A stretch of DNA of 64,000 nucleotides from a virus. Positions 10,574-48,642 of this stretch are shown here, piece after piece. The position numbers and the translations under genes are program-made. The notes beneath the pieces are model-generated. The model searched no databases, was not told the DNA's origin, and saw only the letters and a program-made list of their open reading frames with translations. Positions within the stretch are counted from its first letter, which is position 1. Each line of letters starts with the position of its first letter. The stretch spans positions 1 through 64,000 of IMG/VR virus record IMGVR_UViG_3300032288_002265. The stretch is one strand, 5' to 3'.

Positions 10574-13500
10574 ATGCCTAACCAGCTTGTTGAGTGGTGG
10601 CGCACACAGCGCCCCGAGGATGCCTCTTTGTCGGACGACAGTCTGACGATGAAGATCGCGTCGATGGCCCCGGACTACAAAGCCCAGGGCAAGGACATCT
10701 TCGCCGACTACCCAGACTTCACGGCCGACTACAACTCGCTGCTCGAGCGGGCTGGCAAGGAGTACCGCCGTGGCACCGCGACGCTCGGCAACGAGGTTAG
10801 CCGTGGCTTGCAGCGTGGCATCAGCGGTCTGAAGTCGACGGCCTACGGTGCTGCGGCTCTGGCGGCTGACGCCATTCCTGGCACGTTCGCTGATCCTGCT
10901 CGAGATGCCCTGCTGCGGAAGTACAAGACTGCACAGGAGGATGCGTCTCAGGAGGATGTCACCCCGGCAGTTGGGTCGTACAAGGAGGTTGGAGATCTGC
11001 GAGATGCTGGTCAGTACGTCGCCGGCCTCGTTGGTGAAGGTCTACCGTCCGTCGCCGAGTCCATGGTTACTGGTGCCATTGGTGCTGCGGCTGGCAGCGA
11101 GGTGCCCGTGGCCGGCAACATTGCTGGCGGTATCGCCGGCATCGTCGGAAAGCAGGCGGCGAAGCGGCTCATCGCCAAGAAGATCGCTGGCTTCACGGCC
11201 CAGGAGATCGAGGAGGCCGCGCTCAAGGGCGTCGGATCCGAGGCGCTGAAGCAGCTGGTGCGTGCCGAGACCAAGGCGATCACGTCCACTGCAGGCGCTG
11301 CGCTCGCCAGCACGCTCAACAGCTACGGCTTGAGCGCGGGTGAGATCTACGGCGAGCTCGCGACCAACCCGAACGTCAAGCCTGAGGACGCCCTGGGCAT
11401 CGCTGTTGCCGCTGCGATCCCGGCTGCGATCGCCGACACGGCTCTGCCCGGGTACGTGATCAACAAGTCGGGCGTGCTGCGCCGGCTCGCTGGTCAGATC
11501 GAGAACTTTGGTGAGACCGAGAAGCGTGGGTTCTTTGGGTACATCACCAGGCTTGCTGCCGAGGTTCCCAAGGTCTCGACCATGGAGGCTGGCACCGAGG
11601 CGTTCCAGGAGCTCGTCAACATCGCCGCGACCAAGTACGGCGAGACGGGCAAGTTCGACCTATCACTGACTGAGGCCGAGAAGGAACGGATCATCAACTC
11701 CGGTATCGGTGGCGCTGTCGCTGCCACCACCACCGCCCCGCTCGCTGCCGCCCGCTTCGACAAGACGGAGCAGGAGGCTACCGCCCAGGCACCGGCTGCT
11801 GCTGCTCCTGCCCAGGCGCAACCTGGCTCTCCAGCCGCGCCCGCCGCACAGGCAGCGCCTGCTGATCCCACTGCTCCTGCTGCTCAACAGAACCAGCCAG
11901 ACACCGCCACGGACGTGCTCGAGGCTGGGTACGACACGAACATCGACGGCATCAAGGATCTCGCCCGCAGAAAGCTGGCTGGTGATGACGTGTCTGCCGA
12001 GGAGGCTGCACTGAAGCCTGATGCCGCTCGCCGCTACCAGCGCGAGGTGATCGCTGCGTCCGAGGCGAAGGCTGCTGCTGAAGCTACTGCTCCTACCGAG
12101 ACGGCTGCGACTGCCACGGAAGAGAAGAAGACTGAACCTGAATCGAAGAGCGCCCTCACTGCTGAAGCGCAAGATCTCCTGAGGAATGTGGATGCCGGCG
12201 GCGTTCCTGTATTCATCACCGCAAACCTCAAGCGGATTGCGTCTGAGAACGGCGTCACGATCGAGGGATCTGACACTTCGAACAGCGTGATTGAGAAGCT
12301 GCGGAAGAAGGGTGCGGAGACCGATCCTGCTCCGGATTCGACATCTACTGATGCTGGTGGCGAGGAGAAGAAGTCGACGATCAACCTCACCCCGATCGAT
12401 TACACCGACAACCCGTCCTGGGATGCGGCCACCAGGACGTTGAACCGCACGAGCGGATCGGCCCGCGTCATAGATTACTCCGACCGGAAGATCGTCCTGG
12501 TCAACGTGAACGGGCTCAACATTCCGTTTTACCTATCTACCGGACAGGCTAAAAAAAAGGAGGTCGCTGCCGGCAAGTGGTACCCGATCTTTGGCATCTC
12601 CTCGGATGGGTGGCTCAACAAGGGTTCCCAGAAGGAAATCAACAACTTCTACGGGAGCGAGGAGCTTAAGAGGATCGCCCAGCAGTTGGACGCTGAGCTT
12701 GGTAAGGATGTCAAAGCGGACATTAAAGTGTCCAACAGCGCGGTGTTTTCCTCGGTCAACGGGTTCCTAAAGGAGCTCGGGCTACAGCCTGTCGAGAACG
12801 AGCTCAGCACCACGGTCGATGATCTCAAGAAGAACATCTCAGCAGTCATCGCTGAGATTGAGCGTCGCAAGGCTTCTGCCTCCGAGCCCACTCCTGCTCC
12901 CACTCCCGCACCGGCTGCTGATGCTGCACCGACCAACGTCGACGCCGATCCTGTCGACCAGGCTGAAGAGGGTGAAGACTTGCAGCTTTCTACGGAGGAC
13001 TCTGCGGCGAAGCAGTCCATGTCGAAGGACGCCAAGGCTGCTCAGAGCCAGGTCGAACTGCTCAAGAAGAAGATCGCCGCGATCGAAAAGCTGACGGAGC
13101 AGCGATCGAAGGAGATCGAGCCGGCCCAGTCGTTGATGGATCGGTACATCGCCGCCGATGCGATCACCAACAAAGAGGAGCGGGCGGACGCTCTCAAGGC
13201 GCTCGAGGGTGAGCTCAAGAAGTACGGCGGCGTCGAAGGCCTGCAGAGCCGGCTCCAGACCCTGAATGTCCTGGAGACCGACAAGAACGGGAAGCCGAAG
13301 CTGCTGCTGAAGCCGGTCAGTGACGACCCGCGCAAGACAGTGTCGACGCGGCTGAACTACTACGCCAAGAAGCTGAACGAAGCGCAGTCGAAGTTGATGA
13401 TGATCAACGACGACATCGACACGCTGATGATGTCTGCCGCTCCGTCCGAGCGCAGCCGGATGCCGGCGTACTACGAGTCCGGTGACGAGTCGGAGCAGTC

Positions 13501-16500
13501 TGGTGAGCTTATGCGCCTGTACGGCGAGTCGCTCAAGGCCAAGGGACTTGCCAGGCAGACCGCGCTGAACGAGCTCGGTTACACCCTGACCGCCGACGCT
13601 CGTGGCAAGGATTCCAACCAGCGCCATAGCCGACGCCTCACCGCCTGGGTGAAGCGCAGCGAGGCTGGCAATCCGACCGAGATCATCGTCACCACCTCGC
13701 ACCGCGAGCCGATCCCTAAGAAGTCGAAGAGCGAGTTCAATCCGGTCGACCGGTACGTCTTCGCTGTCTCCAACACCGAGTACCTGCAGGGCGGTAACAA
13801 GAAGAAGGTGACCGAGAAGAAGGCTGATGTCCGCACGATCACCCAGATGATCGACGACGGCTTCATGCCGTACTCCTCGATCCTGCTGGGCTCTGCGCGT
13901 CACCGTAGCGTCGAGCGGTTTGTCTTTCAGGAGGGAGGTAAAACCGCGCTCGCGCAGTACAACGAGATGTTCGGCGAGGCCAAGCAGGCTGCTGCCGCCG
14001 GGAAGCCAATCGAGACTGGGTTCGGTAAGAACGAGGACGAGATCATCAACGAGGCCGCGAAGACCGCTGCCGAGGAGTTGTCCGATGTTGAGCTCGAGTA
14101 CGCCAACAGGTTCTTCCAGTACATCCGCGACCAGTTCCTAGAGCAGTCGGCTGAGCTCCTGGACAAGGGTCGCTTCTCTGAGGCGCTCGAGCAGAGCTTG
14201 CTCGGCAAGATGATCGGCGTGTACGACGAGATGGTTTCCAAGAACGCCTCGGAGACCGACATCTCGAATACGTTTTCCAGGTCGTTCAAGAGCGAGATCG
14301 AGGGATTCCTCAAGCAGGAGAAGAAGTTCGCTTCCGCCCGTGACATGGCGGTCATTGCTGAGACCCTGCCGTCCTACTTCGCTGGATCAGCCTTGAGAGC
14401 GACGATGTCCGCTCGTGCCGATGCACTGAAGCAGACGTATCAGGACATCAAGCTCAACGCCCTCAAGAAGGCGATCGGGGAGAAGAACAATGAGAACAAT
14501 CAAAGTACCTCAGGAACTAAGGCAGTCAGTCCCACCGGAGCAGCTGGTAAAGCTGATCGAAATGGTGGCGGTGACGGCAAAGGCAATCGGGTCGTCTCGA
14601 AAAAAGATGCTCAAGCAAAGGTCGCCAAAGCAGGCAAGGCCGCAGCAGGTAGCGTCGCGTCCAAGAAGCGTACCGCCTCCCGAGCAGATGTAGCCAAGGC
14701 CACCGCTGCGAAAGCGGACAAGCCCAAGCGCACTGACGCTGCCTCCAAGGCCAAGAAGCAGGCAGCGAAGAGCGAGGTCGTCAAGCGGGAGACCAAGTAC
14801 GTCTTCAATCCGAAGACCGGACGGGCCGAGCAGGTCTCGAACAAGATCATCGAGGCCGGCACGCCTGCGCCTGTCGCGAAGCCTAAGAAGGCTGGCACCA
14901 AGAAGGAGGCCGCTCCGAAGAAGGGCACGAAGCCTGCCGCTCCAGAGCAGCCCAAGCCCGAGGCCAAGCCCGAGCCGACGATCGAGCAGCGGAAGGAGGC
15001 CGCGCTTGAGGCTGTCGCCAAGCTGCTCGCCGCGAAGCTGATCAAGCGCAAGGAGTACAACGGCCTGATCGACGCGATCAACGCCGGCACGATTGCTCAG
15101 ATCCAGGAGATCCTGGACAAGTCCCAGGCTGCGGAGAGCTCGGCCAAGGACAGTAATTCGGTGGTCGCGCTGAAGGAGACCGTGCTCAACCTCGAGGAGC
15201 AGGGCCTGATCGACAAGGTTGTCAGGAAGGCGATGCTCAAGAAGATCGACCAGAACGCCTCCAATCAGGAGGCCTTGGCGAAGTTCGAGCAGGAGCTCAA
15301 GGACTACAGCGACCGCGAGGCGAAGAAGACCCGCAAGCGCCTGTCCCAGGCTGACCCTGAGGCCATCGAGTCGGTCGACCTGCAGAGCGGGCGTATCACC
15401 CCGGTCGAGCTCGTGCCCAACTCGATCGAGAACATCGAGCACAACATCCGCCGCTTCAGTCAGCCGGCCAGGAGCCTGCTCACCCAGAGCATGGACGCCG
15501 AGTCGGTCTCGCAGAAGTACCCCAACCTGATCACCGCGCTGCGTCGCATCGCCATCGAGGCTGCGACGGACTCCAGCCCGATGAGTGTGATCCGCGCCAC
15601 GATCGCCAAAGCGATGATGGACCGCGTGGCTAATACCGGTGCCAAGCTGATCTTCGTCGATCAGTCGATCACCCCTGGCGTGCTTGGAAAGTTCGACCTC
15701 CGGAACAACGAGATCGTCATCTACACCGGGGCGCACTCGACCGACCTGGACCTGCAGGCCACGATCCTGGAGGAGACGCTGCACGCCTTCACCTCGAAGA
15801 CGCGCCTGGCTTTCGACACCAACCCTGAGTCGCTGAGCCTCGCCCTGCGCGATGCTATCACCGGACTGAACAGCCTGATCGAGGCCGCGAAGAAGGCGGG
15901 GCTGAAGTGGCAGGAGAGCGACAGTGCGGATGCCGCCGTGGCGTTCGACGAGTTCGTGGCTGCTGCCGTTCGTGACGACCAGTTCAAGGCCCAGTTGGCC
16001 AAGATCCCGTTCAACAAGGACTTCGGCATCAAGAAGGCGACGACTCTGCTCGAGGCGATCAAGCTGCAGTTCTCGAAGATCCTCGAGGCGATCGTCAGCG
16101 CGTTCCCGATCTTCGGCAGTGGAGGCAAGACCGGCGGGATGACCGCCCTCGATGCCAGCGCAGCGTTCATCAACGCGATGGTGACCAACCACCAGAAGGT
16201 GGCCAACGAGCAGGGTGGCAAGGAGCAGCGAAACCGCTACGTCGAGGGCACGCTCGGGACCGGTGCCGACATCACGGTCGATGGCAGTCAGTTCTCGGCC
16301 GACGCGACCGCCGAGGCCAAGCGGCTTATGGCGCTGCAGAACCTGATCCAGGATGCCGCCACCCGCATGGTCGATATGTGGAACCGGAAGGGGAACAACC
16401 GTTCCTCGCAGGGCACCCAGCTTCTGAGCAATGACCAGGCGATCAAGAACATGATCCTGGACATGATCAGCAACTCGATGCCGCTGCCGTCCGACGCCAA

Positions 16501-19500
16501 GCAGGCGATCAACAAGGCGCTCTCAGACCAGGGTGCCAGCACGATCTCCGACGCCATCACCATGGGCGACCTGGAGCAGAAGAGCGATGCGCCCAAGGTG
16601 GCTCGCGACGGACTCAATGCGCTGAACACCGTGCTCTTCAACCTGAAGAGAATGCGGGCCGAGGCAGAGGAACTGTTCGGCAAGAAGAACATCCTCCAGA
16701 AGATCGCCGACTCGAGCTTCGAGATCAGCGAGCTCACCAAGAAGTTCGAGGACATGAACTTCATCGGGAAGGAGTTCGTGAAGGAGCTTCGCCGCTCGAT
16801 CGATGAGAGCGAGGACGTTGGCGCTGGCTCGATCGCCAAGGCGATGGGCATGACGACCGGACGTAAAGCCTCGTTGCAGAACGCCGCGACCTGGATCCAG
16901 GCGAACCTCAACGCCTACACCGACGCCCTCGTGGCCTTGTCCGAGTTGGGCGTGGACTTCAAGAACACCCCGCCTGCTGACATCCTCAAGACCGTCAACG
17001 CCGCCGCAGCGACCGACGCGAGGCTGGTGCCCATGCAGGACATTGGTCGGCTCGCCATGGCCGGTCAGTTCGCCCGCCGTCGCCCGATGGTGATGGACTT
17101 TCTGGCCACCCGCAGCAGCGGTGAGGCCGGTGCCCTGCGCTCGATCATTGCGATGGCCACCAGCAGCCGTGCCGACGCCATCGAAATGGCCAAGCGCGAC
17201 CTGTCGAAGCTGAAGCGGATCGGTGGAATCGCTGCCCGCATCATCGATCAGTTGTCGGAGATGAAGGCCGAGCACCGTAAGATGCTTGACCAGGCCAAGC
17301 TGCACGCTGAGCGCGAGCAGTTCGCCGTGGATGCCGAGGCCGCGCTCACCGAGCGGATCAAGTACCTGGATCGAATGCTGCAGGTTGAGGACACCTCCGG
17401 TAACAAGCTGTGGCAACCGCACCACAACGCCACCTACTTCGTACCGACCTCTCCGAACCAGTCGGAGGAGTCGCTCTTCGAGGACAACCCGACCTCCCAG
17501 TCGTTCCGGAAACTCCGGTTCGGCCAGGACTTCGACGGTGCCAAGGTCCGCAGCGAGCTCGCCCTGATGAAGGGATGGCTCGACGCCAACCAGAACCTGC
17601 GCGGCACCTCGAAGTACAACCTGATGAAGCGTCAGATCGACGGACTCACCAAGATGTATGCCGAGGAGGTCGACGCCAACGTGCGCCGTGGACCGTTCGG
17701 GTTCCTGGTGCGAGCCCTGGGATCCAGCGCCGACCGCCTTGAGCAGCTTGGCCTGCTGTCTGCCAAGGAGGCCGCGACAATGATCCGCCGGTACGTAGCG
17801 TCGTTTGAGCAGTCGCTGAAGTCGGTCGATGCGAAGTCGTTCCACGAATACGATGCGCTGATGCGGAAGGGAACTGAGCTCAGCGGCTTGCACCCGCTCG
17901 AGTTCAAGCGCCAGTACTACAACCGTGCGCTCGGCTACCTCGAGACCCGTCAGGATCTCCTGAATCCCACTCTCACGCAGCAGGCTCAGGAGGATCTGCT
18001 GGTGCGCGAGGCGATCCGTTTCATGGACCAGTCGACTCCGATGAGCGACGAGTTGAAGACCACCGTGGGGAACCTGCTCCGCACGGCCGGTCGAAACGGC
18101 GAGATCATCATCGGCCGCAACCGCGTGAACTTCGGTCTGAAGGTGGCCGACGTGATGAAGGATGGTCGAGTCTACCTCCGTGAGCCCATCGGACATCCGC
18201 TGTCCACCGCCGCCCGCAGCTTGGACGAGAGTGTTCGAGTGTTGGCCAACAAGATGGAGGCTGCGTGGAAAGAGACATTCACTGCCAACGGCGAGCCTGA
18301 TACTAAGCTCAAGCCGGCTACCGTCTCGGGCCTGTACACCACGGACGTGAACGCGCTGCGCTCTATCCTGGCCGGCCGGTTCACCGAGGAGGTGATGTCG
18401 AAGTTCGTGAAGCCGCTGGTCAGCAAGACCGGCAAGACTAACTTCAAGGGGCCTGAAAGCCTTGGTGTGGTCGACATGGCCAAGCGGGAGAACCTCATCG
18501 AGGCCTACCGGCTGGCTGGTGGCGACATCATCAAGTTCGCCGAGGAGCTTCACCGACTCGAGGGCGGCGACCCTGCCACGCTCGCTGACTTCGTTGGCGA
18601 GACGATTGGCACGCTCCAGAAGTACGCCTCGACCCTGTTCCAGGTGGCGGACACTGCCGGAAAGAACGCGGACGAGGATGCCGACCCTGGCCTGAACTTC
18701 CTGAACGCTCGCCAGGGCGAAGACTTCCCGTGGGAGTGGCTCGACTACAAGGAGTACGGCTACAAGAACCGGACTCGATACCTCCGTGTGATGGCTCAGC
18801 AGTTTGCATTCGGCGACAACCAGGATGGATTCAATCGCCTGGTCGAGGAGTCCCGCCGGCAGCTGATGAAGTTCAAGGACGAGTACGAGGATGCTCACAA
18901 GAAGCTCAACGCTGGCGACCGTGCCGGCTACGAGAAGGCCCTGAACGAGGGCGGCAACCGGATCGCCCGCCAGAACGCCCAGGCAAACGTCCTGGAGTTG
19001 AACGCCGCCGAGAAGCACCACTCCGCGCTGATGAGCGAGCTCAACGGCAACAAGCAGTCAGCCGGTGTGTTCTCCGAGATCCTGGGAGTCATCTCAGGCA
19101 TGACCGTGCAGGGTCTGGCGACGGCCGCGACCGACTCGGTCACGCTGTTCGAGGCTCCGTTGCGGAAGTTCGGCTTCTCCAAAGAGGCCATCCAATTCAT
19201 CGCCGGAACCTGGAAGGCGCTGGGCACCGAGATTGCCGGCACACTGGCTCAGGCGTTCGGGATGCAGTTCCACCAGGACACCGCCACATCCCGTGAGACC
19301 GACATCCTGAACCGCAACGGCCTGGCTGACAGCGACAGTATCACCTCCAGCCGTGGCTTTGCGGCCTTGCACGAGCGGTACATCCAGGAGCTTGCCGAGG
19401 AACTGACCTTCTCGGCGATCACCGATCGGTACAAGAACGAGCGTATCACGATGGCCAAGGAGCTCGCTTCGGGCGCGGTCAAGCGCGTGGCGAAGGCTGG

Positions 19501-20977
19501 CAAGGTGTTCCTCGAGTCCGGTATCGGCCAGGCCAAGGACGACAGCCAGGCGTTCGCCTCGTTGAAGCTGCTCAATCCGTTCACCCAGGCGTCGATCTGG
19601 ATGCACCGCGCTGCCGCCCGCCAGTGGCTGCGGACGATCAACAACGCCGTCCTGAAGGCCGAGGTCTACTTCAAGGCCCACCCTCAGGCTGAGTCGGATC
19701 CGAACTTCCGCTTCACCGCCAAGGAGCTTGGCTACTCGGGCAAGACCCTGACCGGCATGAAGCTGGACAATCGGGCCTGGGAGTTCCTGAGCGAGAAGCT
19801 GGCTCAGTCTGGCATCAGCCTCGAGGACGCAGCCCGCAAGAAGCTGCGCGGCCAGGATCCGCTGGACTTCAACCAGATCCAGTCGGCCTTGTCCCTGGCG
19901 CAGACCGAGATCCTGCTCAACACCAGCCCTGTCACCCGACCGGCTTGGTCCCAGGACACGATGCTCGGCCGTCTGTCCACCCCGCTGGTGGGCTGGGCGC
20001 TATACAAGAGTGCGGACGTGGCCAAGACCGCTGCCGGTCCCAAGTCCAAGGGCGACCTCAAGGCGTTCGCCAGCTTCATGGAGGCGATGCTGCTTGGTGT
20101 GCTGCCGATCTCGCTCGCCTACGCCATGCTGCGTGACGAGTACGAGGAGGAGGTTCTGAAGAAGAAGCAGAACGTCATGCCCCTGCGGGCGGACGCCACG
20201 CTGCCGGCTGCGATCCTCGATGCCACGTCCCGCCTGGGTATGCTTGGCATCGTCGGTGAGATCCCGAACTCGATCGCCAACCAGTCGACGCAGCGCGAGG
20301 TCTCGGTCGACAGCCGCGTGTTTGCCGTGAGCTCCGCGCTTTCGTTGATGCGTGCGATTTCGACCGCGTACAACCAGGGCACAGTGACCTACCAGTCGGT
20401 GGTTCGGCCGATGATGCAGGCGGTGGGTGGCTCAGGTTATCTGCAGAACTTCGATGCGATCAACGGCCTGGCTGGGCTGGACAATGTCGAGTCCCGGCTG
20501 GCCAAGCGTGTGAACGTCGGCAACCAACTGCGAGTCGCCGGCCGGATGAACGACATGGAGATCCGTGGAGGCAAGGGCATGGCGACCACCGCCAATCCGG
20601 TGAAGCCGCACGTGGTAAACATGGCCCTGGCTGCGTACGCCAACGACTCGATGGCGTTCCGTCAGGCGTACCAGAAGGCGCTGCAGGCGGCGATCAAGAC
20701 CTTCCCGGACTCGGATCCGTACGAGAAGGTGGCATCGGCGTTCGAGTCTCAGCACCCGCTGAAGTCGATCTTTGCCACCCGCCCAACCACGGCCGACTAC
20801 CAGAAGATGCTCCGGTCACTCGGGGACGAGGCTTCGGAGGTCAGCGCGGCGATCCGCAACCTGAATGCCTACGGTGCCCAGGTGCTCACCAAGCGCGGCG
20901 GCTCAGGCATCAAGCCGTTCTACGGAACCGAGACCAGCAGCAGGTCCACGGACTACCGCAGTATGCTCACGAGGTAA
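10574..20977 (+). CDS. Giant internal virion (ejection) protein, 3467 aa
   Basis: One uninterrupted frame of 10.4 kb. Residues 40-300 contain Gly/Ala-rich hydrophobic stretches that could insert into membrane. Residues about 390-440 are an Ala/Pro/Gln-rich linker, and 1300-1500 is a Lys/Ala-rich basic region. Around 1730-1736 ILEETLHAFT resembles the core of a zinc metallopeptidase motif but with Glu in place of the first His. The rest is helical, with further hydrophobic stretches near the C-terminus (about 3150-3250) and a final motif HPLKSIF...TTADYQKMLRSL that I associate with giant phage internal proteins. No transglycosylase motif was recognised. Role by size and context: ejected with DNA to form a trans-envelope channel. 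Confidence 0.75.
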   Translation: MPNQLVEWWRTQRPEDASLSDDSLTMKIASMAPDYKAQGKDIFADYPDFTADYNSLLERAGKEYRRGTATLGNEVSRGLQRGISGLKSTAYGAAALAADAIPGTFADPARDALLRKYKTAQEDASQEDVTPAVGSYKEVGDLRDAGQYVAGLVGEGLPSVAESMVTGAIGAAAGSEVPVAGNIAGGIAGIVGKQAAKRLIAKKIAGFTAQEIEEAALKGVGSEALKQLVRAETKAITSTAGAALASTLNSYGLSAGEIYGELATNPNVKPEDALGIAVAAAIPAAIADTALPGYVINKSGVLRRLAGQIENFGETEKRGFFGYITRLAAEVPKVSTMEAGTEAFQELVNIAATKYGETGKFDLSLTEAEKERIINSGIGGAVAATTTAPLAAARFDKTEQEATAQAPAAAAPAQAQPGSPAAPAAQAAPADPTAPAAQQNQPDTATDVLEAGYDTNIDGIKDLARRKLAGDDVSAEEAALKPDAARRYQREVIAASEAKAAAEATAPTETAATATEEKKTEPESKSALTAEAQDLLRNVDAGGVPVFITANLKRIASENGVTIEGSDTSNSVIEKLRKKGAETDPAPDSTSTDAGGEEKKSTINLTPIDYTDNPSWDAATRTLNRTSGSARVIDYSDRKIVLVNVNGLNIPFYLSTGQAKKKEVAAGKWYPIFGISSDGWLNKGSQKEINNFYGSEELKRIAQQLDAELGKDVKADIKVSNSAVFSSVNGFLKELGLQPVENELSTTVDDLKKNISAVIAEIERRKASASEPTPAPTPAPAADAAPTNVDADPVDQAEEGEDLQLSTEDSAAKQSMSKDAKAAQSQVELLKKKIAAIEKLTEQRSKEIEPAQSLMDRYIAADAITNKEERADALKALEGELKKYGGVEGLQSRLQTLNVLETDKNGKPKLLLKPVSDDPRKTVSTRLNYYAKKLNEAQSKLMMINDDIDTLMMSAAPSERSRMPAYYESGDESEQSGELMRLYGESLKAKGLARQTALNELGYTLTADARGKDSNQRHSRRLTAWVKRSEAGNPTEIIVTTSHREPIPKKSKSEFNPVDRYVFAVSNTEYLQGGNKKKVTEKKADVRTITQMIDDGFMPYSSILLGSARHRSVERFVFQEGGKTALAQYNEMFGEAKQAAAAGKPIETGFGKNEDEIINEAAKTAAEELSDVELEYANRFFQYIRDQFLEQSAELLDKGRFSEALEQSLLGKMIGVYDEMVSKNASETDISNTFSRSFKSEIEGFLKQEKKFASARDMAVIAETLPSYFAGSALRATMSARADALKQTYQDIKLNALKKAIGEKNNENNQSTSGTKAVSPTGAAGKADRNGGGDGKGNRVVSKKDAQAKVAKAGKAAAGSVASKKRTASRADVAKATAAKADKPKRTDAASKAKKQAAKSEVVKRETKYVFNPKTGRAEQVSNKIIEAGTPAPVAKPKKAGTKKEAAPKKGTKPAAPEQPKPEAKPEPTIEQRKEAALEAVAKLLAAKLIKRKEYNGLIDAINAGTIAQIQEILDKSQAAESSAKDSNSVVALKETVLNLEEQGLIDKVVRKAMLKKIDQNASNQEALAKFEQELKDYSDREAKKTRKRLSQADPEAIESVDLQSGRITPVELVPNSIENIEHNIRRFSQPARSLLTQSMDAESVSQKYPNLITALRRIAIEAATDSSPMSVIRATIAKAMMDRVANTGAKLIFVDQSITPGVLGKFDLRNNEIVIYTGAHSTDLDLQATILEETLHAFTSKTRLAFDTNPESLSLALRDAITGLNSLIEAAKKAGLKWQESDSADAAVAFDEFVAAAVRDDQFKAQLAKIPFNKDFGIKKATTLLEAIKLQFSKILEAIVSAFPIFGSGGKTGGMTALDASAAFINAMVTNHQKVANEQGGKEQRNRYVEGTLGTGADITVDGSQFSADATAEAKRLMALQNLIQDAATRMVDMWNRKGNNRSSQGTQLLSNDQAIKNMILDMISNSMPLPSDAKQAINKALSDQGASTISDAITMGDLEQKSDAPKVARDGLNALNTVLFNLKRMRAEAEELFGKKNILQKIADSSFEISELTKKFEDMNFIGKEFVKELRRSIDESEDVGAGSIAKAMGMTTGRKASLQNAATWIQANLNAYTDALVALSELGVDFKNTPPADILKTVNAAAATDARLVPMQDIGRLAMAGQFARRRPMVMDFLATRSSGEAGALRSIIAMATSSRADAIEMAKRDLSKLKRIGGIAARIIDQLSEMKAEHRKMLDQAKLHAEREQFAVDAEAALTERIKYLDRMLQVEDTSGNKLWQPHHNATYFVPTSPNQSEESLFEDNPTSQSFRKLRFGQDFDGAKVRSELALMKGWLDANQNLRGTSKYNLMKRQIDGLTKMYAEEVDANVRRGPFGFLVRALGSSADRLEQLGLLSAKEAATMIRRYVASFEQSLKSVDAKSFHEYDALMRKGTELSGLHPLEFKRQYYNRALGYLETRQDLLNPTLTQQAQEDLLVREAIRFMDQSTPMSDELKTTVGNLLRTAGRNGEIIIGRNRVNFGLKVADVMKDGRVYLREPIGHPLSTAARSLDESVRVLANKMEAAWKETFTANGEPDTKLKPATVSGLYTTDVNALRSILAGRFTEEVMSKFVKPLVSKTGKTNFKGPESLGVVDMAKRENLIEAYRLAGGDIIKFAEELHRLEGGDPATLADFVGETIGTLQKYASTLFQVADTAGKNADEDADPGLNFLNARQGEDFPWEWLDYKEYGYKNRTRYLRVMAQQFAFGDNQDGFNRLVEESRRQLMKFKDEYEDAHKKLNAGDRAGYEKALNEGGNRIARQNAQANVLELNAAEKHHSALMSELNGNKQSAGVFSEILGVISGMTVQGLATAATDSVTLFEAPLRKFGFSKEAIQFIAGTWKALGTEIAGTLAQAFGMQFHQDTATSRETDILNRNGLADSDSITSSRGFAALHERYIQELAEELTFSAITDRYKNERITMAKELASGAVKRVAKAGKVFLESGIGQAKDDSQAFASLKLLNPFTQASIWMHRAAARQWLRTINNAVLKAEVYFKAHPQAESDPNFRFTAKELGYSGKTLTGMKLDNRAWEFLSEKLAQSGISLEDAARKKLRGQDPLDFNQIQSALSLAQTEILLNTSPVTRPAWSQDTMLGRLSTPLVGWALYKSADVAKTAAGPKSKGDLKAFASFMEAMLLGVLPISLAYAMLRDEYEEEVLKKKQNVMPLRADATLPAAILDATSRLGMLGIVGEIPNSIANQSTQREVSVDSRVFAVSSALSLMRAISTAYNQGTVTYQSVVRPMMQAVGGSGYLQNFDAINGLAGLDNVESRLAKRVNVGNQLRVAGRMNDMEIRGGKGMATTANPVKPHVVNMALAAYANDSMAFRQAYQKALQAAIKTFPDSDPYEKVASAFESQHPLKSIFATRPTTADYQKMLRSLGDEASEVSAAIRNLNAYGAQVLTKRGGSGIKPFYGTETSSRSTDYRSMLTR

Positions 20978-41227: not shown

Positions 41228-41465
41228 GCCACAGTTTGTGTACTTTCTGTGGGGTGGTTGGCACGGCCTTTGCCTTGAACAGGTCAAACTGGCCTGAGAT
41301 GGCATCGGCGAGCACATCACCGCTGATGCTGCGCTTGAGCCTGGTGTGTTTCTGCCAGCCCTGAAGCAACTGCTTCTTGGGATCCCAGCGGAACACCCAG
41401 ACCTTCCCCTGCGCCATTGCCTCGAACTTGCAGCGGCGCACCCTCGTTTTCTTCGTTGGATTCAT
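41214..41465 (-). CDS. Hypothetical basic protein
   Basis: 83 residues from the ATG at 41465 (ATGA overlap with the upstream gene). Basic N-terminus (NPTKKTRVRRCKFEAMAQ) and a Trp-rich centre. No family recognised. Confidence 0.55.
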   Translation of the reverse strand: MNPTKKTRVRRCKFEAMAQGKVWVFRWDPKKQLLQGWQKHTRLKRSISGDVLADAISGQFDLFKAKAVPTTPQKVHKLWHEVC

Positions 41466-42442
41466 AGTCTCGTGACGATTTCTCCCGGCCCGAACCACTC
41501 ACCCTGGCGCGACCAACGAACAGCGTCGGTATTGCCATCGATGACCCGGATGGTCGGGAGATTGAGCTTGTTGGCGATGGCACGGACGATCGACTCATCG
41601 TTCGTCCCTTCCACGATGTTCCAGATCTCGTCCATCACCCACGAGAGGTACACCTCGCGGGCTCTGCCGTGCTTCGCGTAGAACCGCTTCGAGTTCCAGA
41701 GGTGGAACGCAGTCTTGTTCTTCACGGGATGATCAGCGGCAATGTCGAGCGTGGTGATCTTACCCACGCGCTTTTTCATCACTGCGGCGAGCATTGGGAG
41801 CGAATACTGCTCGGCAAACACCATCTCGGTGATCGGCAGGTCGCGGCCTGATCCCTTGATCAGAACCTTGTGCGCGGCTGTCACCCCCTTGATTGACCCA
41901 CGGATCATCAGGGACTCCGCAAGGTGGCGGTATTCCTCCAGGATCTCCTGGTCGTTGAAGCCCAGTATCGCCGTGTTGAGCGGTGAGACGCATGGAAGTT
42001 CTGTAGTCTTGATGATGTCTTCAGCTTCAGACCATAGGCTATTCCAGGCATATACTTCCCAGTGGCGCGGCTCGTCATGCAGCACGTTCACGTCGTTCCA
42101 CGTCGACGGCCGCTTCCACAGCACTGCATCGAGATCGACGAGGATGCACGGAGCCTTGAGCAGGTTGAGTGCGGCGATCTTACCAGCGGCCCAGTAGGTG
42201 TCCTGATTGATCTTTGGATCGATCCGGAGTCGCAGCACCCCGTCGTAGAGCTTGCTGATGCCGGTCGATTCAGCGAACTCCTGGCCGAGCTCATCGCAGC
42301 ACAGCATGATGGGTCCGATCATGTCTCGATACGCCAGTGCGCTGAGCATCATCGTGGCGATCTCGAAGTCCTCGAGGGGCTTCTTGTAGACCAGGGCGTG
42401 TGCCCCGATTGGGTCTTGGATGTACAGGCTTAATCTATTCAT
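41462..42442 (-). CDS. Glycosyltransferase-like protein (DUF6734-like)
   Basis: 326 residues from the ATG at 42442 (ATGA overlap). The segment YWAAGKIAALNLLKAPCILV followed by DLDAVLWKRP carries a DxD-type metal motif after a hydrophobic strand, typical of GT-A enzymes. Later elements (AILGFNDQEILEEYRHLAES, and AFHLWNSKRFYA with a conserved-looking His) also fit. The acceptor and sugar are unknown. It is placed among replication-side genes rather than tail genes, which could point to modification of DNA bases or of a host molecule. Confidence 0.65.
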   Translation of the reverse strand: MNRLSLYIQDPIGAHALVYKKPLEDFEIATMMLSALAYRDMIGPIMLCCDELGQEFAESTGISKLYDGVLRLRIDPKINQDTYWAAGKIAALNLLKAPCILVDLDAVLWKRPSTWNDVNVLHDEPRHWEVYAWNSLWSEAEDIIKTTELPCVSPLNTAILGFNDQEILEEYRHLAESLMIRGSIKGVTAAHKVLIKGSGRDLPITEMVFAEQYSLPMLAAVMKKRVGKITTLDIAADHPVKNKTAFHLWNSKRFYAKHGRAREVYLSWVMDEIWNIVEGTNDESIVRAIANKLNLPTIRVIDGNTDAVRWSRQGEWFGPGEIVTRL

Positions 42443-42870
42443 TGGAACGAGTTTGGTTTTTCTTTTGCGAGGCGGACGAGATGCGGTTTGAGGCCTGGAG
42501 ATGGTTTGATCTTCAGCACGAACTGCGGGGGCTGAAACACCTTGAACTCTCCGACTCCTTGTCGCCCTGCGCGGAAAGTTGCGTGAATGGTGCCGATTCC
42601 AGGGAGCGCGACTCGCTCTCCGTTGGCGATCTTCGAGAAGATCCAGGCGATGTAAGCCCGGGTGATCTTCGCAGGCTTGTTGCATGGGCTTTTCTTGGCG
42701 TACCCGTAGACCTCGTGCGCGAAGTCAGTGTGGGTGTTGAGCCGATTGTTGTAGGAACCTTTCCGCAGCAGCCGCTTGGGATAGGCACTGCGAGCAGACG
42801 AACTGGTTGAGCTCGGAGTCGAACCACTTGTGGGGTCCGTCGGATTCACAGAGGTAGCATCGTTGTTCAT
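42439..42870 (-). CDS. HU/IHF-like DNA-binding protein
   Basis: 143 residues. The core (about 65-120) is KITRAYIAWIFSKIANGERVALPGIGTIHATFR, the strand-turn start of the HU arm region, after a Ser/Thr-rich N-terminus of about 30 residues. HU-like proteins bend DNA and help replication and recombination. No ATG exists after the overlap, so the start must lie inside the preceding Cys-rich gene, giving 146 bp of dual coding. Confidence 0.65.
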   Translation of the reverse strand: MNNDATSVNPTDPTSGSTPSSTSSSARSAYPKRLLRKGSYNNRLNTHTDFAHEVYGYAKKSPCNKPAKITRAYIAWIFSKIANGERVALPGIGTIHATFRAGRQGVGEFKVFQPPQFVLKIKPSPGLKPHLVRLAKEKPNSFQ

Positions 42871-45590: not shown

Positions 45591-46145
45591 TCAAAAAGGT
45601 ACATCGTCCGAACTGGCGTCGACTTCCTGCGTCACGGTGTTGCCGGACACGGTCCTCGTGCCGCCGGCCTGGACGCCGCTGGCAACCGGGGTCGCCTTGG
45701 CGATGGCCTTGGCCTTCGGACCGAGGCGTGATAGTAGGCTCGAGAGCTTCGAGGCCTCCATCGGCGCAGCGCCACCGCCGCCACCACCGGGAGGATTCAG
45801 CCACGCCACCTTGCACATGGCCTTGCCCTGGTAGGTCTCCATCTCGGTCTGGATGTTGCAGGGGCGACCGAGGAACGTGGTCTTGCCCGCGAACAGAGCG
45901 TTGAGGTCTCCGTCGAATCCGAACACCTCCTTGAGGCGGCGGATGGTGTTGTCGAACGCGCTGTCCGACAGCCACGCCCGATAGACGGCGATCTTGCCCT
46001 TGTCGACGCCCTCGGACACACGCACTGGGATGCGGATGAACGGGGTCTTTTTCTCTCCGCTCTCGCCGAACCATCCCGTTTCACCGGGGTCTTCGACGAT
46101 GCACTCGTAGGAACCTGCGTGTTCGATGTATTTGTTGCTGCTCAT
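45591..46145 (-). CDS. Single-stranded-DNA-binding-like protein (DUF669-like)
   Basis: 184 residues. Beta-rich domain 1-115 (YECIVEDPGETGWFGESGEK then TTFLGRPCNIQTE), a Gly-rich linker (GGGGGG near 118-124), and a C-terminal tail ending DASSDDVPF. An acidic tail ending in D-D-[IV/L]-P-F is the protein-docking tip of bacterial SSB, so this is probably the phage SSB even though the domain is not clearly a classical OB. Encoded with the Sak4-like ATPase as is usual for such pairs. Confidence 0.75.
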   Translation of the reverse strand: MSSNKYIEHAGSYECIVEDPGETGWFGESGEKKTPFIRIPVRVSEGVDKGKIAVYRAWLSDSAFDNTIRRLKEVFGFDGDLNALFAGKTTFLGRPCNIQTEMETYQGKAMCKVAWLNPPGGGGGGAAPMEASKLSSLLSRLGPKAKAIAKATPVASGVQAGGTRTVSGNTVTQEVDASSDDVPF

Positions 46146-46151
46146 GTTGGT

Positions 46152-47036
46152 TTACTGAAGGGTTTCGAGTTTCTGCACAGCGGCCTTGAGGCGGTCAGGA
46201 GGGAGCGTGCCGATCAGAGGCATGGTCTTCTCCCACTGAGCCTTGGCAGCGTCGCTGAGCTTGGCGGTGGCGTACAGCGCGGTGATGCGCTCGCGGAGGG
46301 CGGACGGGCTGTTGGCCTTGATCTCACCGGACAGGCTCTCCCAGTTGAGCGGGATGCTGTCTGGCAGGTTGAGACGGTTCTTCGCGTCCCACGCGGGGCT
46401 CCACTGGGTGTGCAGCACGCGGTCGCCGCCGATGGTCTTCTCTTTCATCGCGCCCTTCTCCTTGGTCTTGAAGACCTCGAAGACGGCGAACAGGCAGGCG
46501 TCGGGCCACTCGCGGAAGATGCCGGTGAACTTCTTGTTCCCCTTCATCTCGTAGCGATCCCACGAGTCGCCACGGGGATCCTGAAACGTGCGGATCTGGA
46601 CGTGCGACAGGATGATGATCCACAGGCGCTGGGCGTGGCGGATCTGGTCGAGCTTGGCGAGCACCGACACGAGCTCCTGCTCGGCGATGGTGTAGCCCTT
46701 CCCGTATCCGTAGTCCTCGATGTTGGCCTTGCCGTCCCGTTTGCAGATGCCGTCGTAGATCATCCGCTCGAGCCAGTCGGCGGTGTCGATGACCAGCGAC
46801 TTGTACTCGCCGGGGTTGGTCGCCAACTCATCGAGGAGGGCGTTGAGCTCCTGAAGGGAGCTTGGGGAGAATCGAGCGACGTGCTCGAGACCGGTCAGAC
46901 CGTCCTCGCTGCAAACGAACAGCGGGTTCGGAGCCTGGGATGCGATCGTCGACTTACCGATACCTTCGGGTCCGGCGATCAGGATGCGGGGAGGGAGCTC
47001 GGCGTCGCCGCGCTTCACTTTAGCTAGGATACTCAT
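46152..47036 (-). CDS. RecA-like recombinase ATPase (Sak4-type)
   Basis: 294 residues from the ATG at 47036. Walker A GPEGIGKS at 22-29, Walker B SLVIDTADW at 80-88, and ILSHVQIRTFQDPRGDSWDR with sensor-type residues (about 140-160). The layout is that of phage Sak4-type single-strand annealing ATPases rather than full RecA. It would work with the SSB-like protein and the exonuclease in recombination or replication restart. Residues after about 210 are a helical tail. Confidence 0.85.
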   Translation of the reverse strand: MSILAKVKRGDAELPPRILIAGPEGIGKSTIASQAPNPLFVCSEDGLTGLEHVARFSPSSLQELNALLDELATNPGEYKSLVIDTADWLERMIYDGICKRDGKANIEDYGYGKGYTIAEQELVSVLAKLDQIRHAQRLWIIILSHVQIRTFQDPRGDSWDRYEMKGNKKFTGIFREWPDACLFAVFEVFKTKEKGAMKEKTIGGDRVLHTQWSPAWDAKNRLNLPDSIPLNWESLSGEIKANSPSALRERITALYATAKLSDAAKAQWEKTMPLIGTLPPDRLKAAVQKLETLQ

Positions 47037-47037
47037 T

Positions 47038-48105
47038 TCAGTTCTGTGTGTTTTTGAGGTGGTTGAAGTAGGCCTCAAGCCCGAGGTGAACCAACGTGCC
47101 CAGACGGAGAGCCTCGGACGCCTCATCGTCTTGGATTTTGCGGACCTGCTCTTCGTAGTGCAGGAAATGGTGGCGGGCGCATCGACGAAGCGACGACGAC
47201 CGCGAATTGGTCAGAAGCTGGCGTTCGCCGTCTGACTGGATCTTGAGCTCGTTGTGAGCGGACTTGGTCTTGGCAAACCGGATGCCATCGACCGAGGCGC
47301 GGCCCGAGCAGAGATCGAAGAACTCGCACGTGCGGTTGTAGGCGTTGCACGCATTCGGATTGCGCGGCCACAACTGCTGCTTGCGGAAGTAGAGGATCTG
47401 CTGGCTCAACTGCCAGGCGTCGCTCATGTACTCCAAGATGTCGGAGTCGAGGCGGGCGATCTCCTTCTGGGCATAGAAGTTGAACGGGTTCTCGCGCAGG
47501 ACTCCCAGCACGCGGGTCTCGAACTCCTCCGGGGTCTCCGGTCGAGTCTGGACGACGTAGCCGGCCTCGGTGTCACCGGTCTCGCGCCACTTCTTGCCGT
47601 CCTTCGTCCGCACACGGTTGCCGTTCGCATCGAGTACGATCTTGGAGCCGGCCTCGTCACGCAGCGGGATCTGCGCCTGGCGTTGACCAGGCTTGCCCAT
47701 CACGTCGTAGATGACGCCACCCACGTCCTGGCCGGTCTGCAACGCGCCCAGGAAGTACTTCGAGACCTGCGTGTCCATGCGAAGCCGGTCCCAGTAGTTG
47801 GACTCCGGAGCCACGTCATCGCTGGTGGTCTTGTGCTCAAGGACGATCAGCTTGCCGTCGGAGCGACGACGAAGCAGGGCGTCCATCTTGCCGGCCTCAG
47901 AGAACGAGCGGCTCGTGCCTTCGGTCTCCGGGTTCAGCAGCGGGAACGCGAACTCGCGCTCTACGTCGACGACCTGGTAGGCGCTCCAGTTGTTGCACCA
48001 CACCGCGTCGTAGACGGTGACCATCGCTCGGGCCTTGGCGACCGAGAACAGATCGTCACTCTTGATTGCGGTCAGTGCGACCGCCAGTTCCTCTCTCATG
48101 CTCAT
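47038..48105 (-). CDS. Cas4/AddB-like PD-(D/E)XK nuclease with permuted motif order
   Basis: 355 residues. The PD-(D/E)XK core is visible as GKMDALL (72-78) and LIVLEHKTT (86-94), with three Cys after it (C253, C260, C266) as in the iron-sulfur Cas4/AddB nucleases. The part that is normally N-terminal, containing the first Cys and the GxxxH motif, is here at the C-terminus: LLTNSRSSSLRRCARHHFLH (C309) and ALRLGTLVHLGLEAY (332-346). The four Cys and all catalytic residues are kept, so it may be active as a circular permutant. DNA-end resection with Sak4 and SSB is the likely role. ATGA overlap with the RusA-like frame. Confidence 0.82.
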   Translation of the reverse strand: MSMREELAVALTAIKSDDLFSVAKARAMVTVYDAVWCNNWSAYQVVDVEREFAFPLLNPETEGTSRSFSEAGKMDALLRRRSDGKLIVLEHKTTSDDVAPESNYWDRLRMDTQVSKYFLGALQTGQDVGGVIYDVMGKPGQRQAQIPLRDEAGSKIVLDANGNRVRTKDGKKWRETGDTEAGYVVQTRPETPEEFETRVLGVLRENPFNFYAQKEIARLDSDILEYMSDAWQLSQQILYFRKQQLWPRNPNACNAYNRTCEFFDLCSGRASVDGIRFAKTKSAHNELKIQSDGERQLLTNSRSSSLRRCARHHFLHYEEQVRKIQDDEASEALRLGTLVHLGLEAYFNHLKNTQN

Positions 48106-48455
48106 GGTAGTATTTCGATTACCGTTTCTTCTTGGTCTTTTTTGCTGACCTTTTCTTGTCGAATTTCGAGCTCGATAAGGTCTGGAGAATCATCCCGCAG
48201 TACGCCCCCATATCGAAGGAGGTCGATGACGTACTTGGGGCAGACGTTGTCGGGGTCGAGGAGCCGGCAGCGCCTGCTCGTAACCACGACTCGAATGCGC
48301 GTTTTGCCTCCTTCTTTTCTCGGTGCCGCTGCCAGTGGTTCATTCCAAACAGCCGGTTGAGGCTGGGCAGTCGGTACTTGAGTGTGATCCTGAGTCCCCC
48401 TGGTGGAATGCCGTTGAAGGAACTCGGCGAGTTGCTCTTCATTCCAGCGGGGCAT
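48102..48455 (-). CDS. RusA-like Holliday-junction resolvase, C-terminal half frame
   Basis: Frame B. The RusA catalytic region is here: RIRVVVTSRRCRLLDPDNVC then KYVIDLLRYGGVLRDDSPDL, with the D-x-DN and DD motifs, followed by ELEIRQEKV. Upstream in the same frame there is an ATG at 48455 without an SD; the product would lack the usual PSxN N-terminus, which lies in another frame (48119-48442). Its stop is overlapped by the start of the nuclease (ATGA). See the finding on a possible frameshift. Confidence 0.7.
   Translation of the reverse strand: MPRWNEEQLAEFLQRHSTRGTQDHTQVPTAQPQPAVWNEPLAAAPRKEGGKTRIRVVVTSRRCRLLDPDNVCPKYVIDLLRYGGVLRDDSPDLIELEIRQEKVSKKDQEETVIEILP
48119..48442 (-). CDS. RusA-like N-terminal half frame
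   Basis: Frame A. It starts at an ATG that overlaps the HTH gene stop (ATGA), the same coupling seen through this operon. Residues 17-50 (LRITLKYRLPSLNRLFG, MNHWQRHREKK) match the N-terminal strand and PSxN motif of RusA resolvases. After about residue 45 this frame becomes Ser/Thr-rich and loses the match, while frame B carries the catalytic motifs. It may be expressed as a frameshift fusion with frame B. Confidence 0.5.
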   Translation of the reverse strand: MKSNSPSSFNGIPPGGLRITLKYRLPSLNRLFGMNHWQRHREKKEAKRAFESWLRAGAAGSSTPTTSAPSTSSTSFDMGAYCGMILQTLSSSKFDKKRSAKKTKKKR

Positions 48456-48642
48456 TGGTGAGTTTGGATAGGACGCTCGGCCAGTGGAATCTGAGGTCTC
48501 GGTTGTTGAGCCTGACAACAGGTATCTTACCCAAGGCTGCGTACTTCCTGACACGTCTCGCGCTGTATCCGATCTTCTCAGAAAGCTCGGATACCGTAAT
48601 CAACCTTTCGGAATCCAGTGGATGTTCAGAGGTTTTTTTCAT
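48439..48642 (-). CDS. MerR/excisionase-like HTH regulator
   Basis: 67 residues from the ATG at 48642 (an ATG at 48657 is inside the upstream repeats). ITVSELSEKIGYSARRVRKY and a following wing (GKIPVVRLNNRDLRF) is a winged HTH like MerR or phage excisionases. It heads the leftward recombination/replication genes. Four 11-bp repeats immediately upstream would suit cooperative or autoregulatory binding by this protein. Confidence 0.7.
   Translation of the reverse strand: MKKTSEHPLDSERLITVSELSEKIGYSARRVRKYAALGKIPVVRLNNRDLRFHWPSVLSKLTNAPLE

Follow-up and report, generated by a model that had tools for sequence, protein, structure and literature searches.

The window, as the whole stretch of DNA under analysis is termed here, comprises 64,000 nt (positions 1 to 64,000) of the 73,327-bp virus record IMGVR_UViG_3300032288_002265. 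It harbours a phage replication and recombination cluster, to which a gene for a stand-alone nuclease belongs (Table 1). The start codon of this gene and the stop of the preceding gene share the tetranucleotide ATGA, so that the two frames overlap at M1; the start common to relatives corresponds to residue 3 (MREEL). A single base pair separates the nuclease stop from the start of a sak4-like gene, which is followed by a probable single-stranded DNA-binding protein (SSB), and the pairing of sak4 and ssb is known from earlier work (PMC5928155). Further genes in the vicinity match profiles of a MazG-like protein and a DnaB-like helicase. Elsewhere in the window, a 407-aa protein (41462-42685, minus strand) shows a match to DUF6734 below threshold, and a very long reading frame of 3467 aa (10574-20974, plus strand) has no match in Pfam or PHROGs; the size of the latter may recall the RNA polymerase carried in the virions of N4-like phages.

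Table 1. Genes, segments and motifs at the exonuclease locus of the window (residue numbers refer to the exonuclease).
Feature	Position	Strand	Evidence or remark
Permuted exonuclease gene, order B-C-A	47038..48105	-	unbroken ORF, 355 codons / 355 aa
Upstream gene, RusA-like	48102..48554	-	weak match; stop overlaps exonuclease start (ATGA)
Sak4-like ssDNA annealing protein (AAA_24)	46152..47036	-	profile matches; 1 bp past exonuclease stop
Probable SSB partner	45591..46145	-	acidic tail ending DDVPF; homologues after sak4 in relatives
Segment B (residues 18-79): helix, beta strands, GxxD	47869..48054	-	segment HMM
Segment C (residues 84-287): ExK, QxxxY, three Cys, HxEL (ancestral C-terminus)	47245..47856	-	segment HMM
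New C-to-A linker (residues 288-296, 9 aa)	47218..47244	-	
Segment A (residues 297-348): LLTNS, Cys309, GxxxH (ancestral N-terminus)	47062..47217	-	segment HMM; PF12705 start
GKMD (72-75), catalytic D75	47881..47892	-	invariant
E90-H-K92, catalytic ExK	47830..47838	-	invariant
Q113-VSK-Y117, QxxxY motif	47755..47769	-	invariant
Cys253, Cys260, Cys266, three putative cluster ligands	47308..47349	-	invariant
Cys309, fourth putative cluster ligand, ancestrally N-terminal	47179..47181	-	invariant
GTLVH (336-340), H340 of motif I	47086..47100	-	G336/H340 invariant

Enzymes of this family can be divided into three segments: A, the usual N-terminal piece with one Cys and GxxxH; B, which extends up to GxxD; and C, which carries ExK, QxxxY and, further on, three Cys and then a conserved HxEL. 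In canonical relatives the order is A-B-C, whereas the window exonuclease reads B-C-A and thus departs from the linear order Cys-GxxxH, GxxD, ExK, three Cys that is typical of the PF12705 / phrog_1218 family. The RecB-type motifs are all present: H340, GxxD (D75), ExK (E90/K92) and QxxxY (Q113/Y117). An earlier note, made from the DNA letters alone, had placed GKMDALL and LEHKTT first, the three Cys next, and the fourth Cys with LGTLVH at the C-terminus, and had proposed a circular permutation in which the four Cys and the catalytic residues are preserved. The reading frame confirms each of these positions, and D75, E90, K92, Q113, Y117, C253, C260, C266, C309, G336 and H340 are invariant in 24 same-order (B-C-A) relatives.

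The nuclease is circularly permuted. In the native order PF12705 scores 42.8 bits against a cut-off of 22 and phrog_1218 reaches E 6.4e-22, each profile matching in two separate stretches: positions 5-53 of PF12705 fall on residues 301-350, and positions 99-330 of phrog_1218 on residues 24-267, with the second stretch elsewhere. Such divided matches would also be produced if the enzyme lacked its N-terminal segment and its C-terminal Cys and LGTLVH either matched by chance or belonged to a second, truncated nuclease, the alternative that the earlier note had itself raised. Once the C-terminal segment is placed ahead of the rest, however, both matches become single stretches, that of phrog_1218 (2-333 on 3-330) rising from 79.3 to 89.0 bits and that of PF12705 from 42.8 to 56.9 bits. 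When all 353 rotations are scored against an HMM built from canonical members, the maximum falls where expected, at rotation 290, with an increase from 365.7 to 422.8 bits; canonical control proteins peak at rotation 0 in the same scan, and an HMM built from distant isolate phages, used as outgroups, gives the same picture. Cys309, G336 and H340 of segment A are invariant, no further copy of segment A lies nearby, and dN/dS is 0.04-0.21, well below 1, in every B-C-A or C-A-B pair for which it was computable; segment A taken alone is under purifying selection in most pairs. A chance match or truncated nuclease is therefore very improbable and was discarded on the strength of the rotation scans, the invariance and the lack of another A copy.

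The permuted order is conserved well beyond the window. The earlier note knew of no phage enzyme arranged in this way and called for a search for homologues of the same order. Such phage enzymes do exist: a tblastn search recovered a same-order gene, over 95-98% of its length, in the isolate phages Tunturi_1 and Tunturi_2, whose host is the soil bacterium Tunturiibacter psychrotolerans and whose protein is annotated only as 'exonuclease', and many metagenomic phages are likewise B-C-A. When all the loci collected by scanning viral contigs as well as bacterial genomes were scored with HMMs for A, B and C, 73 distinct sequences proved to be A-B-C, 37 B-C-A and 15 C-A-B, and no protein among them holds any segment twice. 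The phrog_1218 profile matches the Tunturi protein at 105-329 and then at 5-59, a further B-C-A protein (L022) at 99-337 and then at 4-59, and a C-A-B protein (L034) at 148-329 and then at 4-151. A Chthoniobacterales MAG has one B-C-A copy (L163) on one of its contigs. The linker from C to A measures 8-15 aa in the relatives where it can be measured, about as long as the tail that follows HxEL and the head of canonical members combined. Two observations on individual members may be added: at L165:4791-5584, in a bacterial MAG, segment C is split over two frames, owing either to decay of a prophage copy or to a frameshift introduced in sequencing, and five canonical members (L146, L147, L150, L151 and L152) stop exactly at HxEL, with no tail beyond.

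As the records are mostly uncultivated virus contigs, an assembly or chimera artefact might be suspected behind the permuted order. Against this stand the 37 distinct B-C-A and 15 distinct C-A-B sequences from many metagenomes, the complete isolate genomes of Tunturi_1 and Tunturi_2, which are both B-C-A, the purifying selection and the fit of the gene boundaries with their neighbours. The probability of an artefact is negligible, and for the B-C-A order the isolate genomes and dozens of contigs refute it.

Structure prediction is consistent with an enzyme whose fold has survived the rearrangement, as the earlier note had thought possible. AlphaFold2, supplied with 24 same-order relatives, yields one confident predicted fold for the whole window protein, C-terminal segment A included (pLDDT 90.5, pTM 0.82). 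In Foldseek searches the best solved structures include AdnAB, AddAB, RecE, Cas4 SSO0001 and MGME1, with TM of 0.2-0.3 and an rmsd near 20 A, low values that are expected because a sequential aligner was confronted with a re-threaded fold. Among the predicted viral proteins of BFVD the top match is A0A6J5NSY1 (TM 0.72/0.74), which probably has the same order as the window exonuclease. Searching the PDB by sequence gave no true match, whether the native protein or the alignment served as the query.

A second permutation, C-A-B, is found in L034, L039-L043, L142-L145, L148, L149, L153, L154, L156, L175, L176 and others, with genes such as L034:5016-6101 and L142:4998-6041. These proteins start a few residues ahead of ExK (MKVYLWETKTTSED...) and stop shortly past GGxVDAIV; the new termini are therefore located in the loop between the active-site strands that bear GxxD and ExK. 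The start and stop of the L034 gene are tightly fitted to the neighbouring genes. The AlphaFold2 model of a C-A-B protein, computed from 10 sequences only, is of low confidence (pLDDT 50.5) and was set aside. Between the exonuclease and Sak4 genes of L034 lies a small reading frame (L034:6101-6652) that by eye resembles a phage HNH/homing-type endonuclease and has no Pfam match.

Every tree that was computed needs three changes of order within the family, whether it was built on segment C only, on A+B+C, on an enlarged set of 83 sequences or with eight isolate outgroups. The C-A-B sequences form one clade (support 100/100), and so does the B-C-A group of the window (100/99), which Tunturi joins in the outgroup-rooted tree (SH-aLRT 92). 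The isolate outgroups examined are all A-B-C, which identifies this order as ancestral, and all permuted sequences are nested within A-B-C in the rooted tree. The B-C-A proteins L022 (335-1414) and L023, however, are placed among A-B-C sequences rather than with the clade of the window. Recombination between a B-C-A and an A-B-C gene was considered for L022 and rejected, since its segments A, B and C are each nearest to A-B-C members (57-71% identity); its canonical sister L029 is up to about 69% identical to it over the longest segment. A single B-C-A clade is rejected by the AU test (p = 0.016 for C only; p = 0.048, a borderline value, for A+B+C), and the cut in L022 is shifted: its helix IEAALAAL is C-terminal, while the equivalent REELAVALTAI of the window protein is N-terminal. 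Taken together, the sequences indicate at least three independent permutations (the B-C-A clade of the window, the B-C-A pair L022/L023, and C-A-B) at two cut sites.

A smaller number of gains would suffice if the permutation had been acquired once or twice and some A-B-C members had reverted. Counts of changes alone cannot tell gain from loss, and the A+B+C value of the AU test is borderline, but reversion would require a second permutation at the original ends, the rooted tree nests each permuted group in A-B-C, and the cut point of L022 is unlike that of the main clade. Reversion is thus considered quite unlikely, and at least three gains remain the preferred count. This larger result, with its two permutations, was missed by the earlier note because it could be reached only by way of the relatives.

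Whichever of the three orders the exonuclease has, a Sak4 homologue follows directly on the same strand at nearly all loci, often with an SSB gene next to it, and the canonical isolate Yersinia P744 displays the same succession ('Cas4 family exonuclease', then 'Sak4-like'). For this reason the A-B-C, B-C-A and C-A-B enzymes are probably orthologues in one phage locus. On the basis of its motifs, the window gene is predicted to encode a metal-dependent PD-(D/E)XK exonuclease with four Cys of the phage pfam12705 / phrog_1218 group, whose nuclease activity and polarity are putative. The description of the enzyme as Cas4/AddB-like in the earlier note stands as far as the PD-(D/E)XK four-Cys nuclease is concerned; its closest relatives are found among the phage 'Cas4 family exonucleases' (pfam12705 / phrog_1218) rather than in CRISPR Cas4 or AddB. 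The enzyme most likely resects the ends of phage DNA to single strands for the Sak4-like protein, its putative partner, and SSB.

A single Fe-S cluster, called a staple, is bound in Cas4 and AddB by one Cys from the N-terminal and three from the C-terminal part of the chain (PMC4176176, PMC3466216), and by analogy the four Cys of the window enzyme probably hold such a cluster. Zinc or another structural metal in their place appears unlikely: zinc does occupy this site in the structure of a related DUF3799 nuclease (PMC3466216), but the characterised Cas4 and AddB enzymes with this distribution of Cys contain Fe-S clusters. The best explanation of the locus as a whole, to which a probability of roughly 0.88 is assigned, is a permuted, end-resecting phage exonuclease that feeds Sak4 and belongs to a family permuted repeatedly.

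The simplest route to the permuted gene would presumably be tandem duplication of the ancestral gene and fusion of the two copies end to end, after which new starts and stops would trim the fused copies down to one rotated copy. In the window enzyme the ancestral N-terminal segment, with its Cys and GxxxH, now comes after the ancestral C-terminus via the 9-residue linker, and the chain begins and ends within the former A-B linker. The same family was permuted at least two more times, giving B-C-A in L022/L023 and C-A-B, cut between the D and ExK strands. Alternatively, fission may have released A as a free gene that later fused in the other order. Neither a duplicated intermediate among the loci scored nor a vestige of duplication above chance in the 900-nt flanks (best E 0.027) was seen, as might be anticipated from fission; on the other hand, no split-gene member was seen either, and the junction joins the ancestral ends at about tail-plus-head length, as an end-to-end fusion of two copies predicts. 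Fission followed by fusion is accordingly judged somewhat unlikely, and tandem duplication with trimming is preferred.

Because the N-terminal and C-terminal Cys share one Fe-S cluster in Cas4/AddB, the ancestral chain ends should adjoin, and joining them would therefore be easy. By this analogy, the repeated permutation of the family is presumably due to termini held together by the Fe-S staple. A broader proposition, held at a little under even odds, is that the staple renders the nuclease unusually tolerant of re-threading and that the recombination exonucleases of phages pass time and again from one cyclic order to another, including C-A-B with its termini in the active-site hairpin. The permutations themselves may also have been selected, for instance for folding order or for coupling to Sak4.

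The window exonuclease falls in the group described as 'Cas4-like proteins of pfam12705' (PMC5704561). Isolate phages encode such enzymes, annotated as 'Cas4 family exonuclease' or pfam12705 Cas4-like (phrog_1218), for example Rhodococcus CoffeeBean gp67, Pseudomonas PMBT14, Yersinia P744 and Streptomyces Yara. They share the catalytic motifs of the window enzyme and match it end to end once it is rotated, and several adjoin a Sak4/RecA-like gene, as the window enzyme does; the difference is one of order, as those examined are A-B-C. The exonucleases of Tunturi_1 (gp59) and Tunturi_2 (gp56) are B-C-A like the window enzyme, have a similar C-terminal ending (FNHLK) and a Sak4-like gene downstream, and are about 33% identical to it. 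CRISPR Cas4 (SSO0001, Pcal_0546) combines RecB-like motifs with a Cys close to its N-terminus and three close to its C-terminus (PMC3466216, PMC4176176), but in the canonical order; the Cas4 profile TIGR00372 does not match the window protein, native or rotated, at E 0.1, and the neighbours examined (RusA-like, Sak4, SSB, MazG-like, DnaB-like) include no cas1/cas2. The nuclease domains of AddB, a Fe-S staple nuclease (PMC3466216), and of AdnAB, which are the best Foldseek matches in the PDB at the low sequential TM quoted above, are also canonical in order and are part of a large helicase-nuclease, whereas the window enzyme stands alone, with no fused helicase.

Circular permutation as such is well known, and among jumbo-phage DNA methyltransferases permuted and unpermuted forms both occur naturally (PMC7824862). 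Those enzymes have another fold; what stands out in the exonuclease is the occurrence of two cut sites and at least three origins. A phylogenomic study of Cas4 (PMC5704561), surveys of PD-(D/E)XK nucleases and a review of type II restriction enzymes make no mention of permutation, and in the part of the literature covered no report of a permuted Cas4 or RecB-type nuclease was found, although an earlier report is possible. Profile and fold searches assume a linear order, so that permuted enzymes are split into weak partial matches and a complete Cas4-like nuclease can look truncated.

Natural circular permutation of enzymes is uncommon, and it is rarer still for one orthologous phage locus to show two cut sites and at least three origins. 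The canonical sisters and the permuted forms constitute matched natural proteins with which it can be tested whether a metal staple that joins the chain ends licenses permutation, and what folding or functional costs permutation brings. The exonuclease is thus a natural experiment on the extent to which an enzyme tolerates re-threading of its fold.
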